A stretch of DNA of 64,000 nt from Candidatus Saccharimonadota bacterium (GTDB lineage Bacteria > Patescibacteriota > Saccharimonadia > Saccharimonadales > Saccharimonadaceae), in contig JAFRCN010000004.1 in assembly GCA_017404335.1 (NCBI GenBank), forward strand, positions 1-64,000, in the 5' to 3' direction. A program made the translations under genes and the position numbers. Positions 3 through 63,933 of this stretch are shown piece by piece. The notes beneath the pieces were generated by a model. The model worked only from the letters and a program-made list of their open reading frames with translations. It was not told the origin of the DNA and made no database searches. The stretch's first letter is position 1. Each line of letters opens with the position of its first letter.

Positions 3-824
3 GAGGAAGAGAAGACTATCGCCAACTCTACTACTATGCAAGAAGTCACTTCTTGTCCAGAAACAATTCCACTAGAAACCGTATATACTTTAACTGACCC
101 TCGTGATAGTCAGACTTACAAAGTAGCTAGACTTGCCGACGACAAATGCTGGATGTTAGACAACCTCGCCCTAGACCTCACAAATAGTACAGTCCTAAGC
201 GGTATGACGCAAGACAATACGAATGCATCCAACACCACGCTTGGCTATCTCAAAGGCACTACTACCGGCACCACTTCTGATCAATATGCTACCGCCGCAG
301 TCTCTAACTGGACCAGTAGCTACAGCTACTCCGCTCCGCTCGTCAGTATGGCAGACAAAGACAAAACTGCTCCAGAAGGAACCAGTAGCGATCCTAAACA
401 ATCACTAGCCACATCCGATAATTGGAAATACGGTGGTTACTATAACTACTGCGCCGCTTCTGCAGGCTCCTACTGCTATGGCAACGGTACCAGTGCAGGC
501 ACTTCGTCTGGTAACGCCACTGAAGACATCTGCCCGAAAGGTTGGCGAATGCCTACTGGGAATTCCGGCGAATATCAAACCTTATACAATAATGCTAGTT
601 ACAATACCTATGACAAATACAGAGAAGCTCTACGCCTACCTCTTTCGGGCTATTTCTACAATGGCTCGGCGGGCAATCAGGGTAGCTACGGCAGCTGGTG
701 GTCTTCTACTCGCGGCAATAACAACTACATGTACCGCCTCATCGCGAATACGAGCAATATCTACCCAGCCAGCAACTACAATCGCAACCTCGGTTACTCT
801 GTCCGTTGTGTGCTAGGGTCTTAG
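3..824 (+). CDS. FISUMP-domain surface protein, DGR target (5' partial)
   Basis: The reading frame is open to the left edge, so the N-terminus lies outside the window; the first internal ATG is at 36. The visible part has hallmarks of the Fibrobacter succinogenes major paralogous (FISUMP) domain: a KCWMLDNLALDL block, a CPKGWRMPT block, and a WWSST...SVRCV C-terminus, which in this family is thought to adopt a C-type-lectin-like fold. The last 64 residues are encoded by the variable repeat of the retroelement; 14 codons there differ from the template copy, 13 of them AAC in the template. The protein is therefore the diversified target, most likely an exposed binding protein, though no ligand can be inferred. 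Codons are mostly C-ending (ACC, GCC, ATC), unlike the G-ending style of the two genes that follow. Export signals would lie outside the window. Confidence 0.9.
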   Translation, partial: EEEKTIANSTTMQEVTSCPETIPLETVYTLTDPRDSQTYKVARLADDKCWMLDNLALDLTNSTVLSGMTQDNTNASNTTLGYLKGTTTGTTSDQYATAAVSNWTSSYSYSAPLVSMADKDKTAPEGTSSDPKQSLATSDNWKYGGYYNYCAASAGSYCYGNGTSAGTSSGNATEDICPKGWRMPTGNSGEYQTLYNNASYNTYDKYREALRLPLSGYFYNGSAGNQGSYGSWWSSTRGNNNYMYRLIANTSNIYPASNYNRNLGYSVRCVLGS

Positions 825-893
825 CCCTAGCAGTGGAGCGTACCGGGAGTAGGCCCCGTTTTCCGGGTTCCTTCTTCTCCCTCCCCGCCCTTT
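632..893 (+). repeat. DGR variable repeat (VR)
   Basis: This 262-base segment is an inverted copy of 3373-3634. Reading the other copy on the minus strand, every base matches except 18. At all 18 the template has A and this copy has T (8), G (8) or C (2). Differences run from 657 to 795; the following 98 bases (796-893), which pass the stop codon, are identical. That one-sided adenine pattern is the signature of mutagenic retrohoming. Bases 798-893 act in the position of the initiation of mutagenic homing (IMH) region and end in a pyrimidine-rich tract (about 866-893). Confidence 0.97.
811..832 (+). promoter_or_regulatory. Hairpin/cruciform of the DGR target site
   Basis: TGCTAGGG and CCCTAGCA form a perfect 8-bp stem around a 6-base loop. 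The stop codon (822-824) lies at the loop. The same hairpin occurs in the template repeat at 3434-3455. In the Bordetella phage BPP-1 element a short cruciform just downstream of VR promotes target recognition; the position here, 15 bases past the last mutated base, fits that role by analogy. Confidence 0.75.
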
Positions 894-912
894 TCAACAT
901 TGGAAAATCTAA

Positions 913-939
913 GGAGTTCCCGCCTAGAGCGGGAACTCC
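913..939 (+). terminator. Strong hairpin between target gene and accessory gene
   Basis: GGAGTTCCCGC pairs perfectly with GCGGGAACTCC (11 bp) around a 5-base loop. No clear U-tract follows on the plus strand, so it may be a weak terminator, an RNA processing or stabilising element, or part of the retroelement target structure. It is not present in the template copy, which diverges from the target at 893. Confidence 0.5.
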
Positions 940-983
940 GGGAAAAGTGCGCAAAAAAATACTGAATGAAAGGATAAAATAGA

Positions 984-1997
984 ATGGTAAAAAAGTCAAC
1001 TTCCAGAGCCGGTTCAAAACAGGGGACATTGTTCGGAACCGAAAAGAGTAACCGAGAGCCGGCTTCGGAGTTGATGAAGATTGTGGCGGAGAAGGTGCCG
1101 TCGAGAAAGAAGATTCTGAAAGATTTTGCGCCTGAAGAGGCGCGAATGATTTTGTCTAAGCTTGAACAAAACAAAAATGAGAACGAGAAAATGGAAACTG
1201 GGGCGGATAAGGGTAAGAGTGAATGGGGTGAAGAGAAGGAACGAGAGTCGTTACGGAAAGATAGAATCCGCGAAGTCAAAAGAATTGCGAAAGAAATGGA
1301 GATTGGGAATAGGAGTAAGTTGATACTCTTTCCGTCGTATTCAAGGAATAGAGACCAGGTAGAATGGTACAAAATGGGGAACTTTTCTGCGCTTTACTAT
1401 GTGTATAGGATGGCGGACCGGATGGGGAAAACACCGAAGATTCAGCGAGACAACGACCGGTTTTCCAAGATGCATGGGATAGTCTGTATCAATGGGATTG
1501 AGAAGTTTTTGGAGCGTACGATGAAGCTGAATGAGTTTGAGAAATATGAGAAGACACTAGACGGGCTTTATATTGTGTATATGAAACAGGCTTTGTCCGA
1601 CGCGGATTTGGCACTCCTTAGGAAGACGGGAGAGTTACAGAAAGAAGCAATGCATAATGTTTTAAGACCAAAGAAAGCTTCGCCAGAACTATATTTGACG
1701 ATTCTGATGCTGGGACGTCAGATTATGCGGATAGTAGAGAAAATGGATATTGTTTATAGGAGCAGTATTGGGGATACGATTTATCGGACTGTGTTGGAGT
1801 TAATGGAGGTTTACTTTTTATTCATGGATAAGAAAATAGACATTGAGAAAGCTAAGGATGATATGATTAGGAAACTGTTTCGGATACGGGCGGGGATGAC
1901 GTTACTTGGTGAGGATGAGATAGCTTCGGCAGTAAAAATATGCGCGGTCGGGGAGACGATTGTGAAAATAGAGATACTAGTTAATGGGTTAAGATAG
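984..1997 (+). CDS. DGR accessory protein: MutS-domain-I-like and Avd-like fusion
   Basis: This 337-residue protein ends one base before the reverse transcriptase. Residues 1-115 are charged and probably disordered. Residues about 125-190 resemble MutS domain I: WYKMGNF matches the MutS RMGDF motif, and KMHGI followed by an amphipathic helix matches the downstream part. The MutS mismatch motif FxE reads F134-S-A136, so Phe is kept and Glu is lost. Residues about 215-335 are helical and resemble the four-helix bundle of Avd, the accessory factor that binds RT and template RNA in known DGRs. Near the N-terminus, Q13-G-T-L-F17 fits the bacterial sliding-clamp-binding pattern QxxLF. MutS-like accessory proteins have been reported for DGRs; that both modules sit in one chain here is read from sequence and needs profile searches. 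A GAAAGGA ribosome site lies 11 bases upstream of the start. Confidence 0.75.
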   Translation: MVKKSTSRAGSKQGTLFGTEKSNREPASELMKIVAEKVPSRKKILKDFAPEEARMILSKLEQNKNENEKMETGADKGKSEWGEEKERESLRKDRIREVKRIAKEMEIGNRSKLILFPSYSRNRDQVEWYKMGNFSALYYVYRMADRMGKTPKIQRDNDRFSKMHGIVCINGIEKFLERTMKLNEFEKYEKTLDGLYIVYMKQALSDADLALLRKTGELQKEAMHNVLRPKKASPELYLTILMLGRQIMRIVEKMDIVYRSSIGDTIYRTVLELMEVYFLFMDKKIDIEKAKDDMIRKLFRIRAGMTLLGEDEIASAVKICAVGETIVKIEILVNGLR

Positions 1998-1998
1998 A

Positions 1999-3309
1999 AT
2001 GGCTACAAAAGAAGAGAGAAATAAGGCTAGGAAGGCAGAAGTCGCCGAGATAAGAGAGAAGCTAAAGGTGATGCGTAGGGCAATTCAGCTTGCAGAGATT
2101 CCGGCGCAGATGCAAGTTGGGAAAGAGTTTCAGGATTTGTTTGGATTTATAAAGATAGAGGATGAGGAGGAGGTGCGAGACTGGCTGAGGGAGCCGAAGA
2201 ATTTGCTATTAGTAGAGCTATATATCGCGGAGAGATTGGCGCGACGGGGCGGGAAGCGAAAAACGATGGATACGCACGGGTTTGAGGCGAATTTGTTTGA
2301 GAATCTGGTCAAACTTCGTGATGCGCTTTGGAGTGGGAATTATTACCCTAATCGTGGGACGGTACATGTAATTTTTGATCCGGTGCAAAGGGAGATATTT
2401 GCGGCGCCGTATGTTGACAGGATTCTACATCATTGGATAGTTGGTACGATTATGAAATGGCAAGATAAGCGACTGATTTATGATTCGTATTCTTGCCGAA
2501 AAGGAAAGGGAACGCTGTTTGGTGTTAAAAGATTACAACATCATATTCTTTCGGTTTCTTGCAACATGAAGAAAAAAGCATATGTGGTACAGCTGGATAT
2601 TACGGGTTATTTTATGCATATTCGGCGAGATGTGCTTTTTAGTCTAGTTAAAGAGAATATTGACAGGCAATTTCCGGAAGAGACGAGAGATAAGCGTTAC
2701 ACGATACTAATTTGGGCGGTTACGGAAGTGGTTTTTGATGATCCGACAGAAGGGGCGAGATTGCAAGGATCGTATCGAGATTGGATAGGGCTTCCAGATG
2801 ACAAGAGCTTAATGACTCAGCCAAAGGGGCAAGGAATGGTAATCGGGAATTTTACTTCGCAGACGTTTTCAAATATCTATTTGGATCCATTGGATCGATT
2901 TATCCATTTTGTGTTGGGGTATAAGCACTATGGAAGATATGTAGATGACTTTTTTATTGTTGTTACAGAGGAGGAGTTGCCGCAGGTCATGAGAGATATT
3001 AAGGCGATTGAGGCGTTTCTGTCCGGTTTGGGCCTAGGGCTTAATCGAAAGAAGACAAAGGTTACGGAGGTGCATAAGGGAGTGAAGTTTTTAGGTGTAA
3101 TCGTTCGAGGATTTCGGCTGTTTCCGTGCCGAAGGTTAGTGAGGAATTTTCGGAAAGCGACATATCTTGTCGCAGTCGGAAAGAAGGATCCTGAAGTGAT
3201 CGTTTCATATCTTGGGATGTTTTCACACCTTGATGCGGGAAAGATCATACGTAAGGTATTTTTGAGTGTCGGGTGGGATTATGTTTACGGTAAAAAAGTT
3301 GCTTATTGA
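1999..3309 (+). CDS. DGR reverse transcriptase
   Basis: This 436-residue protein copies the template RNA into adenine-mutagenised cDNA. Visible RT motifs in order are an N-terminal FDPVQREIFAAPYVDRILHH block (about 126-145), SYSCRKGKGT (about 173-182), the motif A strand VVQLDITGYF with D200, the DGR-diagnostic IGNFTSQ at 282-288 (group II intron and retroviral enzymes have QGxxxSP here), the catalytic YVDD at 314-317, and the GLGLNRKKTKV...KFLGVIV motifs at about 343-368. No maturase or endonuclease domain follows, and the length suits the compact DGR class. The start is one base after the accessory stop, so the two are translationally coupled. The template repeat lies 63 bases downstream in opposite orientation. 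Confidence 0.96.
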   Translation: MATKEERNKARKAEVAEIREKLKVMRRAIQLAEIPAQMQVGKEFQDLFGFIKIEDEEEVRDWLREPKNLLLVELYIAERLARRGGKRKTMDTHGFEANLFENLVKLRDALWSGNYYPNRGTVHVIFDPVQREIFAAPYVDRILHHWIVGTIMKWQDKRLIYDSYSCRKGKGTLFGVKRLQHHILSVSCNMKKKAYVVQLDITGYFMHIRRDVLFSLVKENIDRQFPEETRDKRYTILIWAVTEVVFDDPTEGARLQGSYRDWIGLPDDKSLMTQPKGQGMVIGNFTSQTFSNIYLDPLDRFIHFVLGYKHYGRYVDDFFIVVTEEELPQVMRDIKAIEAFLSGLGLGLNRKKTKVTEVHKGVKFLGVIVRGFRLFPCRRLVRNFRKATYLVAVGKKDPEVIVSYLGMFSHLDAGKIIRKVFLSVGWDYVYGKKVAY

Positions 3310-3372
3310 TAAGAAAATTGATACAGCTGACAGAATTGGTTGCCTACCTCTTGTAGGAATTTAACCTTTACT

Positions 3373-3634
3373 AAAGGGCGGGGAGGGAGAAGAAGGAACC
3401 CGGAAAACGGGGCCTACTCCCGGTACGCTCCACTGCTAGGGCTAAGACCCTAGCACACAACGGACAGAGTTACCGTTGTTGCGATTGTTGTTGTTGGCTG
3501 GGTTGATATTGCTCGTATTCGCGTTGAGGTTGTACATGTTGTTGTTATTGTTGCGAGTAGAAGACCACCAGTTGCCGTTGCTACCCTGATTGTTTGCCGA
3601 GCCATTGTTGAAATAGCCCGAAAGAGGTAGGCGT
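3373..3634 (-). repeat. DGR template repeat (TR)
   Basis: Read on the minus strand this is the donor copy of the variable repeat at 632-893. It would encode an asparagine-saturated version of the target tail (runs such as NNNNNM and NNNNRNNG), the expected form of a template rich in AAC codons. The copy includes the stop-codon hairpin (3434-3455) and the pyrimidine-rich tail. An open frame over it (3442-3687, minus) joins it to a garbled CPKGWR-like segment, so the template probably descends from a duplicated target gene. It is very unlikely to be translated usefully; its product is the template RNA. It is transcribed toward, and antisense to, the RT gene. Confidence 0.96.
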
Positions 3635-4090
3635 TTTATATGCTTTTTTGGCGATTCAGAGTGGCCGGCCTTCGGGGACACCAACAATATACATACAGCA
3701 TGGGTTAAACCAAGACGGCGAATATGATTTTCGCATATAGCGACAGTGAACCCGCTAACGGACTAACAATCCCACAAAGGTTGCGAGGAGACATTTTGAT
3801 TCATCCTTTACGCCGTAGAGTAAGAGGATTAGACTTTTGCTTCAGCTTTGGTCGAAGACTCTGCTTTTGGCAGAGTATGCTCCTTGCCCTTTAATGTTTA
3901 AAGGTGCTACAGCAGGGATAAGTTTCTTTTAGGCTCTGCTGGGGTGCATTCCCTTGTCATTTTAGCATATACTTTGAATTTGGCGCATAGGCTGACCTTT
4001 TGGAATAGCGGGGAGAATGGTCTTGACTAGGGATTTGGATGACTTTTGTTAAGGCTTTAGACAACCGATAGGGACGATGTAAATGCCGTC
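3635..4090. other. Non-coding stretch beside the template repeat
   Basis: No credible gene is seen in either strand. Around 3655-3690 the minus strand retains a degraded echo of the FISUMP CPKGWRMPT coding region. A candidate minus-strand -10 with extended TGc (TGCTAAAAT) lies near 3958-3966 and could drive the template RNA, giving a 5' leader of roughly 320 bases; its -35 is poor. I searched by eye for tmRNA, RNase P and SRP RNA signatures here and found none. Confidence 0.4.
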
Positions 4091-4180
4091 TTTTCGGAAA
4101 TTAGATACTTGACTTTTTGGAAGTTAGACCTTTGACTTTTTGGAAGTTAGACCCTTGACTTTTCGGAAATCATATCATAT
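4091..4180 (+). repeat. 23-bp tandem repeat, nearly four copies
   Basis: Units begin at 4091, 4114, 4137 and 4160. Each reads TTTT(C/T)GGAA(A/G)TTAGA followed by a variable triplet and TTGAC; the last unit runs into the -10 region. A 23-base period puts the copies roughly two helical turns apart. The TTGAC that closes the third unit is the -35 of the promoter for the next gene, so the array may be a multi-site operator. There are no unique spacers, so it is not CRISPR. Confidence 0.8.
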
Positions 4181-4201: not shown

Positions 4202-5413
4202 ATGTACGAACGAACAATTACTAAGCGTATAAAGCAAATTAATGACACTTTTCGAGTGTTGGTTTTGACGGGACCAAGGCAGGTTGGCAAAAGTACTTTG
4301 CTTGGCAGTTTGATACCTGATGGTATGACTAAAGTTTCTTTGGACGATTTATCCTTGAGAGAGCTGGCTAAGAATGATCCTAGGATGTTTCTCGAAACTT
4401 ATCCTGCCCCGCTTTATATTGATGAGGCTCAATATGCTCCAGAGCTTTTTCCTTATATTAAAATGCGTGTGGACGCGAATCCGGCTCGAGGTCAATACTG
4501 GCTGTCTGGTTCGCAACGATTTGAACTGATGAAAAACGTCACGGAGTCTTTGGCGGGGAGGGCTGGTATTTTGAATATGAATAGTTTTAGCTATAGCGAG
4601 ATTCGGCGTCATGCAGATTGCGAAGCATTTGACCCGGAGCATTTAAGGCAACGTGATACTATCGATGTTAATCAGGTTTTTGAACTGATTTATGCTGGAG
4701 GTATGCCAGAATTATATGCCATACGGGGCTTAGACCGTGACATTTTCTACGACTCTTATGTCAAGACTTACATTGAGCGAGATGTGATGCATATCAAAGA
4801 TATAGGCAATACTCGTGACTTTAAACGCTTCATGCGCGAGATGGCCATACGCGTGGGTACAACCTTGAACTACGCTGACGTTGCTAAGGAGATTGGCGTT
4901 TCTGGTCATACCGTGCAGAGCTGGCTATCGATACTGGAGAGCACCGGGTTAGTTTATTTGCTGGAGGCATATTCATCGAATTTATTGAAGCGTCTTACTC
5001 AGTCGCCCAAGATTATTTTTATGGACATGGGGCTGTGCGCGTATTTGGCTGGTTGGCAGAGTGCGCGCGATTTACAGCTTAGTGATGCCTCGGGGCATTA
5101 TCTTGAATCCTACATTGTTTCCGAAATCATTAAGAACTATCAGAATTTGGGCGTAAATGCCCATTTGTATCATCTTCGCAACAAAGAGACTAACGAAATT
5201 GACCTTATTATTGAAAAGAATAATACATTTTATCCTATTGAAATTAAGAAGACTTCCACTCCTCGACGGGAAATGCTTAAAGATTTCCGTATGCTTGAAG
5301 GTATCAAGACGAAACTTGGTAAAGGTGGAATCGTCTGCACTTATGATAAGCTTATGCCATTAGATGGCAATGGTAATAGCATTATTCCTGTTTCAAGCGT
5401 GATAGATTTATAG
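4202..5413 (+). CDS. AAA ATPase with DUF4143 (AAA_14 family)
   Basis: A 403-residue ATPase of a family common in CPR bacteria and archaea but without a settled function. Residues 24-32 form a Walker A (GPRQVGKST) and 71-77 a Walker B (LYIDEAQ). A winged-helix-like region follows the ATPase core (about 220-255), and the C-terminus contains NEIDLIIE...PIEIKKT, the DUF4143 part that resembles PD-(D/E)xK nuclease cores. The gene has its own strong promoter within a tandem repeat and no co-directional partner, so it looks autonomous. Whether it has anything to do with the adjacent retroelement is unknown; proximity alone is weak evidence. The stretch from 5414 to 5522 that follows shows no gene. 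Confidence 0.85.
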   Translation: MYERTITKRIKQINDTFRVLVLTGPRQVGKSTLLGSLIPDGMTKVSLDDLSLRELAKNDPRMFLETYPAPLYIDEAQYAPELFPYIKMRVDANPARGQYWLSGSQRFELMKNVTESLAGRAGILNMNSFSYSEIRRHADCEAFDPEHLRQRDTIDVNQVFELIYAGGMPELYAIRGLDRDIFYDSYVKTYIERDVMHIKDIGNTRDFKRFMREMAIRVGTTLNYADVAKEIGVSGHTVQSWLSILESTGLVYLLEAYSSNLLKRLTQSPKIIFMDMGLCAYLAGWQSARDLQLSDASGHYLESYIVSEIIKNYQNLGVNAHLYHLRNKETNEIDLIIEKNNTFYPIEIKKTSTPRREMLKDFRMLEGIKTKLGKGGIVCTYDKLMPLDGNGNSIIPVSSVIDL

Positions 5414-53736: not shown

Positions 53737-53869
53737 GGCAAACATCTAGTAATGGTTATGAGCCGATTAAAGTATAACGGTCTAACAAAGAAATGGCACC
53801 ATGAGGTGTCCATTGTTGGACCGTTTAGGCTGATTATTGGATGTTTGCACCCTCGCGGTGCCATTTTTT
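53737..53869 (+). ncRNA. Rod-shaped structured RNA with own promoter and terminator
   Basis: TGT-TATAAT (53723-53731) predicts a start near 53737. The ends close by GCAAACATC (53738-53746) pairing with GATGTTTGC (53840-53848). Further inward AAT/ATT, AGCC/GGCT, TAAA/TTTA, CGGTC/GACCG, AACAA/TTGTT and CACC/GGTG can stack into one rod with bulges and a loop ATGA near 53801. GCACC-CTCGC-GGTGC followed by CATTTTTT (53847-53869) is an intrinsic terminator. The rod with an internal bubble recalls 6S RNA, but no class is assigned. It lacks SRP, tmRNA and RNase P signatures. Confidence 0.65.
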
Positions 53870-53914
53870 ATCACAAATCGCATGCTTTTCAAAAAACCAA
53901 CTAAATGGCACCGC
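53855..53914 (+). promoter_or_regulatory. 12-bp inverted repeat linking the RNA terminator to the FISUMP leader
   Basis: GCGGTGCCATTT (53855-53866) is the exact complement of AAATGGCACCGC (53903-53914), and AAATGGCACC also occurs at 53791-53800 inside the RNA. The terminator arm thus has two alternative partners, one of them in the leader of the gene starting at 53942. This would allow switching between termination and read-through, or base-pairing in trans. Confidence 0.6.
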
Positions 53915-53941
53915 CCGAATAAAACTAAAAGGGAAGGTATT

Positions 53942-55588
53942 ATGATTAGAAGATGGGGCTTGTTTGGGGGCATTGCGCTAATAAGTGTTTTCGTGGGCGG
54001 ATGTTTGAATATAGGAGCGTTTGCGAATAATTTGACTTATCAAACACGGGTGCCGGTAGAATTTACTTTTAATGATACATTGAATTTAACAGTTTCAGGG
54101 GATTTGGTGATACCGGAGCTTTTTCCAGGGATATTCATGGATAGTAACGTGATTACGGTAACGGTTAATACGAACAACGATTATGGATATACTCTCTCGG
54201 CGACGGTGGGGGATACATCTAATCCTTCGAGGGAGATAAGACATTCAGGCTATGCGATTTTGGGCGACCCGATTTTTAGTAATCTTGCGATAGGAGCGAA
54301 TCTGACGCGGGAGGTTTTTTCTAGTAATAGTAGTTACGACAATTATTGGGGTTTTTCGACAAACAAAGTCGGGTCGGCATATAGCGGGAAGTATAATGGG
54401 TTGCCGCTTTATAATGATTTAGCGGCAGAGTCGGTGGTTCTGGATTCTTCGGGTTATATGCCGAGTGGGGGGAGTTCGACGACGGATTTTTGGATTGGGG
54501 CGAAAGCGTCGGCGAATAAGGAAGCCGGGGTTTATACGAATGTGATAAACTTTATTGCGGTGGGGGGAGTAGCACCGATAGGTTTAGAAGATGCTTACGC
54601 GGCGGCGGGAAAAACGAAGATAAGCGTAAACGGTAAAAGATATTACAGAATGCAAGATATGAATAGTGGTATTTGCGCAGTGGTGGAGCTTTTGGATTCT
54701 TCGATTCAAGCGGTAGATATTAGAGATAACAAAGTTTATTGGATTACGAAACTGCGTGATGGAAAATGTTGGATGACGCAGAACCTGGATTTAGATTTAG
54801 ACAGTTCGGTTACTTATACGCATGCGGATACGGATTTGGGCTGGGGCTCAGATACGGCGACGACGAGTTGGACGCCGGCGAACGCGACGATAAAGTTAAA
54901 TGCGGATGGAAAGACTTTTTCTAGTCTTGGTACTACGGATGCCGATAATAATGTTCCCAAATCACTTGATGTAGGAGACTACTACTATGCGGGTTTTGAT
55001 GGAACGAATCTTCTCCCTTCAGTAACAACGAATTATCTAACTATTGCTAAAGATTCTAATGGTGACGTAATTAATAGTAATAACAACAGGGTTTACTTTT
55101 CGATCGACCCGAATAGGGTGAACGGTGGAACGCATGAACATCTCGGGAACTACTATAACTGGTCGGCAGCGGTAGCTAGTAATGATACGAGTGGGTATAC
55201 GAGTAGTACGTATGATAATATAGACAACAACCCGCAGAATTCAATTTGTCCGGCGGGGTGGAGATTACCTACGATTTCACTTGAAGGTCCAAGTTATACT
55301 GAAGTTGAAACGAAAAATGAGCTTGCGAGATTAGTTTATCTTTATAATGGGGATAGCTATGAAATAAATTCGTCGGCTAAACTGGAGCCGTCGCCATTGT
55401 TCTTTGCTCGTGGGGGCTACGTAGAGCGAGATCGGTTGCGCTTCACTGGTAATTATGGCTATTATTGGTCCAGTACCGTTTCTGATAGCTCCAATGCTGC
55501 ACTTTTGTACTTCAGCAACACGGTTGTCCGGCCATCAATTAATGGCGATCGCTACTTCGGTCGGTCCGTTCGTTGTGTGGCGCGGTAA
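53942..55588 (+). CDS. FISUMP-domain surface protein
   Basis: 548 residues. A signal peptide (about 1-29) ends near FANN; a VGGC within it might alternatively act as a lipobox. A beta-rich domain follows (about 30-215). Then comes the FISUMP domain: GKCWMTQNLDLDLD, HLGNYYNWSAA, SICPAGWRLPT and the ending YYWSST...GRSVRCVAR. The C-terminal 65 residues change to a different codon style around base 55390, and the WSST...RCV tail aligns with the DGR-diversified tail of the first gene. Its DNA does not match the template repeat in this window, so if it is diversified a different template is needed. A GGGAAGG site precedes the ATG. Confidence 0.85.
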   Translation: MIRRWGLFGGIALISVFVGGCLNIGAFANNLTYQTRVPVEFTFNDTLNLTVSGDLVIPELFPGIFMDSNVITVTVNTNNDYGYTLSATVGDTSNPSREIRHSGYAILGDPIFSNLAIGANLTREVFSSNSSYDNYWGFSTNKVGSAYSGKYNGLPLYNDLAAESVVLDSSGYMPSGGSSTTDFWIGAKASANKEAGVYTNVINFIAVGGVAPIGLEDAYAAAGKTKISVNGKRYYRMQDMNSGICAVVELLDSSIQAVDIRDNKVYWITKLRDGKCWMTQNLDLDLDSSVTYTHADTDLGWGSDTATTSWTPANATIKLNADGKTFSSLGTTDADNNVPKSLDVGDYYYAGFDGTNLLPSVTTNYLTIAKDSNGDVINSNNNRVYFSIDPNRVNGGTHEHLGNYYNWSAAVASNDTSGYTSSTYDNIDNNPQNSICPAGWRLPTISLEGPSYTEVETKNELARLVYLYNGDSYEINSSAKLEPSPLFFARGGYVERDRLRFTGNYGYYWSSTVSDSSNAALLYFSNTVVRPSINGDRYFGRSVRCVAR

Positions 55589-63561: not shown

Positions 63562-63577
63562 AAACTTTATAAAGTTT
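63562..63577 (+). terminator. Perfect 16-bp AT-rich palindrome after clpP
   Basis: AAACTTTATAAAGTTT begins right after the clpP stop and is followed by further T. It may be a weak terminator of the clpC-clpP message. Confidence 0.45.
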
Positions 63578-63933
63578 TTGAAGTCAATACTACAGCTGAG
63601 TTCTACCTTCTAGGTAAAGCAATCATGAATAACGTAGAGCCAGATCAAAATGCGTCAAATGGCTACGGCCATTACGGGAATAGCGTAACTAACACAGCAG
63701 GTAAAACCGCTACCGTTGCACTTAGAAGTTATCCGAACAACTTCCTCTACTCCGGCTACCTCAGTGGCTCGAGGGCGTACCGTAGAGGTAGTGGCGTGAG
63801 CTATTGGTCGTCTACTGCGAGCGATAACTACTATTCGTACTACCTGAGCCTGAATAGCTCTATCGTCGTCCCAGGTACGAATACCATCGATAAGTACAAC
63901 GGCTTTAGTATTAGGTGCGTCAGTGGCTCCTAG
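63578..63933 (+). pseudogene. Headless FISUMP C-terminal fragment
   Basis: The frame is open from directly after the clpP stop and reads a FISUMP-like tail (EFYLLGKAIMNN..., then SYWSST...GFSIRCVSGS). An ATG at 63625 would give 102 residues, but there is no ribosome site, signal peptide or N-terminal FISUMP part. It is most simply a broken 3' end of a FISUMP gene joined to clpP, possibly a stored or translocated cassette. Its tail aligns in protein with the DGR target but not in DNA. The last 67 bases of the window (63934-64000) show no feature. Confidence 0.7.

Follow-up and report, generated by a model that had tools for sequence, protein, structure and literature searches.

A diversity-generating retroelement of Saccharibacteria with an antisense template unit and an Avd-containing accessory protein

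The locus, its template and its two targets

The beginning of the analysed DNA, a stretch of 64,000 nucleotides hereafter called the window, carries a diversity-generating retroelement (DGR) to which the following features are assigned:

3..824 (+), 3' part of the target gene, 273 aa, with a FISUMP domain
632..893 (+), VR1, the variable repeat, with changed sites at 657-795
811..832 (+), hairpin TGCTAGGG-TCTTAG-CCCTAGCA over the target stop codon, present also in the template
913..939 (+), target-side hairpin with an 11-bp stem and a 5-nt loop, located beyond the end of the TR/VR identity, with no counterpart next to the template
984..1997 (+), accessory protein, 337 aa, with an N-terminal domain (about residues 84-214) and a C-terminal Avd domain (230-337)
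1999..3309 (+), DGR-type reverse transcriptase (RT), 436 aa
3338..3366 (-), short hairpin immediately 3' of the template, containing the motif AGGTTAAATTCC, its role being putative
3373..3634 (-), TR, the template repeat, antisense to both RT and target
3759..3909 (-), predicted structured 5' leader core of the template RNA
3959..3967 (-), extended -10 promoter-like box TGCTAAAAT

The RT was assigned by domain, PHROG and PDB matches. The protein contains the motifs IGNFTSQ and YVDD, with the SQ signature of the DGR clade, and the profile comparison suggested in the original prediction gave PHROG 1423 (reverse transcriptase) at E 3e-70 and, as the nearest PDB structure, the DGR RT 8ub7 (E 1.3e-21, the next match being at 1.9e-5). 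In the RT tree the Saccharibacterial RTs form one supported clade, with those of Bacteroidota outside. A viral origin was considered and rejected, a single IMG/VR contig being found at 38% identity and phage RTs reaching at most 33%. Those relatives that have names belong to Candidatus Saccharibacteria and come for the most part from the guts of goat, sheep and roe deer, and the host of the window's bacterium is probably an animal of this kind. As for the target gene, its FISUMP domain scores 59.2 bits against TIGR02145 (cut-off 41.65) and falls just below the cut-off of PF09603 (E 2e-7); the variable domain may adopt a C-type-lectin fold. Since the first base of the window is also that of contig C2, the N-terminus of the target is missing, so that the element, originally described as complete, is a genuine DGR whose target gene lacks its 5' end at the contig start.

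VR1 and TR were detected by a repeat search of the window (arms of 262 nt each, 93% complementary) and then compared base by base. The alignment is ungapped over 262 bp and has 18 differences, all 18 at an A of the TR, opposite which VR1 carries T eight times, G eight times and C twice; furthermore, 14 codons are altered from TR to VR1, 13 of them AAC and one GCA. On all these counts the original prediction was borne out. As A accounts for 67 of the 262 template bases, the probability that all 18 differences fall on A is 3.2e-12, or 7.8e-9 when only the variable stretch is counted. The differences are confined to 657-795, and the 98 bp at 796-893 are identical in the two copies. The repeat had been described as the 3' end of a FISUMP gene, which holds for its main part, the target ORF ending at 824 and the last 69 bp lying behind the stop codon. 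An A-free pyrimidine tract occupies the 3' end of the TR/VR identity (868-893 on the plus strand, 3373-3398 on the minus strand); comparable tracts are found at this place in many relatives, and the tract is a possible counterpart of the IMH region.

A search of the same genome with the template identified a second target, VR2, on another contig (C4:60637-60855), at the C-terminal FISUMP domain of a long, secreted-looking protein. Over the 201 bp aligned, VR2 has 29 differences from the template, 28 of them at template A, and the single non-A change, T to C, lies in the stop-codon hairpin, within its loop. The variable part has 58 A sites, of which 33 differ from the template in one target or in both; at 12 sites VR1 and VR2 are both changed. 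Because 5 of these 12 sites carry different bases in the two targets, at least two homing events must have taken place. That the repeats are two diverged copies of a FISUMP gene end, produced without retrohoming, could be argued from the many FISUMP paralogues of this genome and from the two target genes themselves, which are 78% identical along 131-832, mostly outside the repeat; however, 46 of 47 differences fall at template A beside a DGR RT, which ordinary divergence would not produce, and the probability of this reading is practically negligible. As far as the DNA itself can tell, the comparison establishes that the 3' ends of targets have been replaced in an adenine-specific manner, both in cis and in trans, beside a DGR RT with an Avd-type partner.

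Adenine specificity is not limited to this element. A family set of 43 Saccharibacterial DGRs with a detected TR/VR pair was assembled, to which one further locus was added, and over these 44 loci 915 of 982 TR/VR differences (93%) fall at template A. Many differences at non-A template positions in relatives had been named in advance as an observation that would speak against the original prediction of adenine-specific mutagenic retrohoming; the prediction is instead supported by the DGR-type RT, by the A-only pattern at two targets and by 43 other loci. This pattern is the definition of a DGR, and compared with it the inverted template unit and the accessory fusion described below are the less familiar parts. 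Whether the element still works is a separate matter. A DGR that once worked and is now silent, its parts looking intact, would leave the same traces, as a sequence is a record of past events only; against this, both the RT and the accessory frames are intact, and the change of just 1 of 138 non-A sites across the two targets argues for recent homing. A silent element is judged decidedly unlikely, and the DGR may be active at the present day.

The hairpin over the stop codon lies within the 98 bp that TR and VR1 share. Since the two copies are identical there, hairpin included, no barrier that would prevent TR from homing onto itself is evident, and this is counted against the model presented here. 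The hairpin at 913-939 is a candidate for a hairpin or cruciform of the BPP-1 kind, with a putative role in homing; a target-side hairpin is strong in the window and in some loci, and weak elsewhere, and it was not found to be a general rule.

Three more DGRs are present in this 686-kb genome (0.69 Mb), which brings the number of RT genes to four, every one of them accompanied by an accessory gene, a template and a target of its own. The other three RT genes (G000:C1:15271-16308, C5:1487-2575 and C5:71385-72461) have antisense templates, with 26/30, 13/13 and 18/20 of the respective TR/VR differences at A, and belong to distant branches of the RT tree. The window itself contains further FISUMP genes or fragments at 53834-55586 (+) and 63562-63931 (+), neither of which has an A-only match to any current template of the genome (in the best template match of 53834-55586, 35 of 76 differences are at A). 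The other TRs are therefore ruled out as their makers by the lack of an A-only pattern, and the two may be retired targets.

The antisense template and its upstream region

The template had been noted as inverted in the original prediction, and this orientation proved to be both real and conserved. An antisense template is the rule in the Saccharibacterial DGR family: TR is antisense to the RT in 41 of 43 loci, in 40 of which it lies just downstream of the RT. Among these 40, the target is upstream on the RT strand in 29, as in the window, and downstream on the template strand in 11. The outgroup locus L103 has the usual arrangement, with a sense template upstream of the RT.

From a transcriptional perspective, the box at 3959..3967 would provide the template with a promoter of its own, and the template RNA would likely start near 3952. 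The box was recognised in the sequence and by the enrichment of TATAAT across loci. In fact, a perfect TATAAT occurs 140-400 bp upstream of the template on the template strand in 29 of 44 loci, and on the other strand in 13, against 5.8 expected.

The leader core is supported by covariation, covariance models and folding. Six close sequences were aligned with MAFFT alone, the structure not being used, and in the resulting consensus nine pairs are changed on both sides; 93% of the alignment cells are paired, compared with 35-59% when the partners are slid. In its topology, a closing stem (AGGAG...CTCCT) encloses three hairpins, and TTGTTRGTC comes next. The window's leader, folded alone, takes the consensus shape, and 3755-3952 has an energy z of -2.05, while a fixed stretch of 220 nt upstream of the template gives z +0.6 in the window because it cuts the leader. 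Across the set, stretches upstream of templates are more stable than the rest of the loci (P 2e-7). No tmRNA or other known RNA was found by ARAGORN or Rfam in 3635-3965.

When a covariance model built from the six sequences was run over 673 kb of loci, five of the six next matches were directly upstream of templates, on the template strand, and a second model yielded two further matches at this position, in L037 and L074. Moreover, when 60 whole genomes of the genus were scanned, each of the seven matches at E <=0.05 proved to be a DGR leader, and one DGR (genome G073) was found blind in this way, its contig containing an RT and a template with 15 of 15 differences at A. As the models miss most other lineages, the leader can be regarded as established in the lineage of the window and in some further ones, though not in the family as a whole. 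For other RT lineages, small unsupervised alignments hint at one long covarying stem. The model detected no leader for the three remaining DGRs of the genome, which is counted against the best explanation.

The leader keeps its position relative to the template when the template is flipped. In L034 and L083 the template is in the sense of the RT and the leader is still directly upstream in the template sense, and L084 has the same leader-template order, judged by template similarity. Since leader and template flip together in these three loci, the leader is part of the template unit rather than of the region downstream of the RT. It could still be proposed that the conserved upstream region is a DNA element, either promoter or regulatory, or an RNA acting alone: the leader structure is a predicted one, and a promoter-like box sits at the 5' edge of the conserved region. 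Compensatory changes in the stems, the agreement of the window's fold with the consensus, the constant order of box, leader and template, and the flipping of the leader with the template all speak against this, and it is regarded as rather improbable compared with a leader of the template RNA. On the opposite side of the template, the motif AGGTTAAATTCC was recognised by sequence and is common to L080, L081 and L084, and partly to L034.

The region beyond the template unit shows two further features. At 4048-4096 (-), 49 bp are 92% identical to a gene end on G000:C1, reading ...RRKDGVYIVPIGCLKP and a stop, and, judging from this match, what remains of a gene end appears to lie next to the template unit. 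Positions 4090-4168 are taken up by three tandem 23-bp repeats (TTGACTTTTTGGAAGTTAGAC...), which separate the template unit from the divergent AAA_14/DUF4143 gene at 4202-5413; the last repeat copy contains a sigma-70-like site (TTGACT, TATAAT).

The accessory protein

The original prediction of an unusual accessory protein also turned out to be well founded, the protein being real and conserved and consisting of an Avd plus an added N-terminal domain. A single-sequence Pfam search gave no significant match for it. Many genomes of the genus have a relative of it adjoining the RT, compared with 0 of 24 genomes of other genera, and an iterated profile of the accessory reaches 123-aa bAvd-like genes upstream of the RTs in L103 and L104. 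The AF2 model has a pLDDT of 90.6, and the fold of residues 230-337 matches 4dwl, 8ub7, 2gsc and 2rld, structures of Avd and related proteins, with Z 14-17, unrelated bundles reaching at most 11.5. Membership in the Avd family is thus indicated by both the iterated profile and the four-helix fold, the Avd structures 4dwl and 8ub7 scoring Z 14-15.

The N-terminal domain, modelled alone, has a pLDDT of 94.5, and its first four fold matches are MutS domain I (Z 5.1-5.5), followed by GFRP at 4.9. Comparison with MutS domain I (PF01624) gave sub-threshold Pfam matches and hhalign probabilities of 7% and 0.5%, so that kinship with MutS found no support by profile comparison. No MutS domain I or V above cut-off was detected in 25 genomes of the order; the best sub-threshold MutS_I match in these genomes lies inside a DGR accessory gene (G009:C24:204152-204259). 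A 107-aa protein with MutS_I above cut-off is encoded in a Prevotella genome (L124:101-1791) right behind a gene with a DGR-target-like Lcl_C end, the RT of that genome being on another contig. In Alistipes (L105), a 218-aa gene weakly similar to the N-terminal domain (E 0.024) stands directly before, and slightly overlaps, a separate 135-aa Avd gene. These similarities suggest that the Saccharibacterial accessory arose when two adjacent genes were joined, although for its N-terminal half the connection is tentative.

Proposed mechanism and comparison with known systems

The explanation considered very probable is a DGR in which a template RNA unit on the minus strand, together with an RT and an Avd accessory encoded on the plus strand, would replace the ends of FISUMP genes in cis and in trans, with errors at A. 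We lean, with some reserve, towards a more specific form of it, in which the template would be a free-standing, promoter-driven RNA gene whose conserved, multi-branched 5' leader recruits the RT together with an Avd fused to a second, possibly MutS-I-like domain, whose targets lie genome-wide and which flips as a module. The promoter near 3960 would drive a separate minus-strand template RNA, arranged as a folded 5' leader, the template and a short 3' motif. The RT and the Avd-containing accessory would bind this RNA, with the leader as the likely docking site, and the complex would copy the template with errors at A. Synthesis of the cDNA may start at the 3' end of the template, close to the AGGTTAAATTCC motif and the pyrimidine tract, and homing may take place near the stop-codon hairpin. 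The cDNA would then take the place of the 3' end in FISUMP surface-protein genes, in cis at the adjacent VR1 and in trans at VR2, which lies on a different contig. Being convergent, the RT and template transcripts might regulate each other.

In the BPP-1 system (brt, avd, TR, mtd) the TR has sense orientation and is flanked by avd and brt; RT and Avd are recruited there by a structured RNA, the spacer 3' of TR (PMC12875486), and the hairpin lies beyond the end of the TR/VR homology (PMC3240598). The window resembles BPP-1 in the RT family, the A-specific differences, the Avd-fold accessory, the variable region at a gene 3' end and a candidate hairpin element downstream of it. It differs in that TR is an antisense unit of its own, downstream of the RT and with a structured 5' leader, in that TR and VR1 are identical over 98 bp at their 3' ends and both contain the stop-codon hairpin, and in that Avd carries an extra domain. 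Where BPP-1 has its 3' spacer, the window has a short conserved hairpin, the large conserved structure being 5' of the template.

Inverted DGRs are known from Shewanella, Vibrio and Photobacterium (Group 4), where TR, VR and target are all opposite to the RT strand (PMC3521204). In Group 4 as in the window, TR is antisense to the RT and therefore template and RT cannot share one transcript; in the window, however, the target stays on the RT strand and the template unit alone is inverted, as in 28 relatives, the Group 4 arrangement being found in 11 other Saccharibacterial relatives. DGRs in CPR bacteria, several per genome, are already known (PMC8144416, clade 2; PMC10907252), and the genome studied here likewise has several cellular DGRs. 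In the literature searched, no description of the structured leader or of the Avd fusion was found; an earlier mention of the fusion or of template-only inversion is possible. MSL (MutS-like, PF01624) is a named type of DGR accessory protein (PMC10053308), and the N-terminal domain of the window's accessory recalls it weakly, with MutS domain I as its first fold matches; it differs in being joined to Avd in one protein, and profile comparison lends the likeness no support.

Much of DGR biochemistry is known from one phage system, in which the recognised RNA is 3' of the template. In the Saccharibacterial family the large conserved RNA structure seems to be 5' of the template, and the template seems to have become an independent gene. 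If true, this would be a trans-acting, portable mutagenesis module and a natural comparison for defining the essential RNA parts. Moreover, a bacterium of less than 0.7 Mb keeps four DGRs whose targets are surface proteins, with possible consequences for attachment to the host or for escape from phages.
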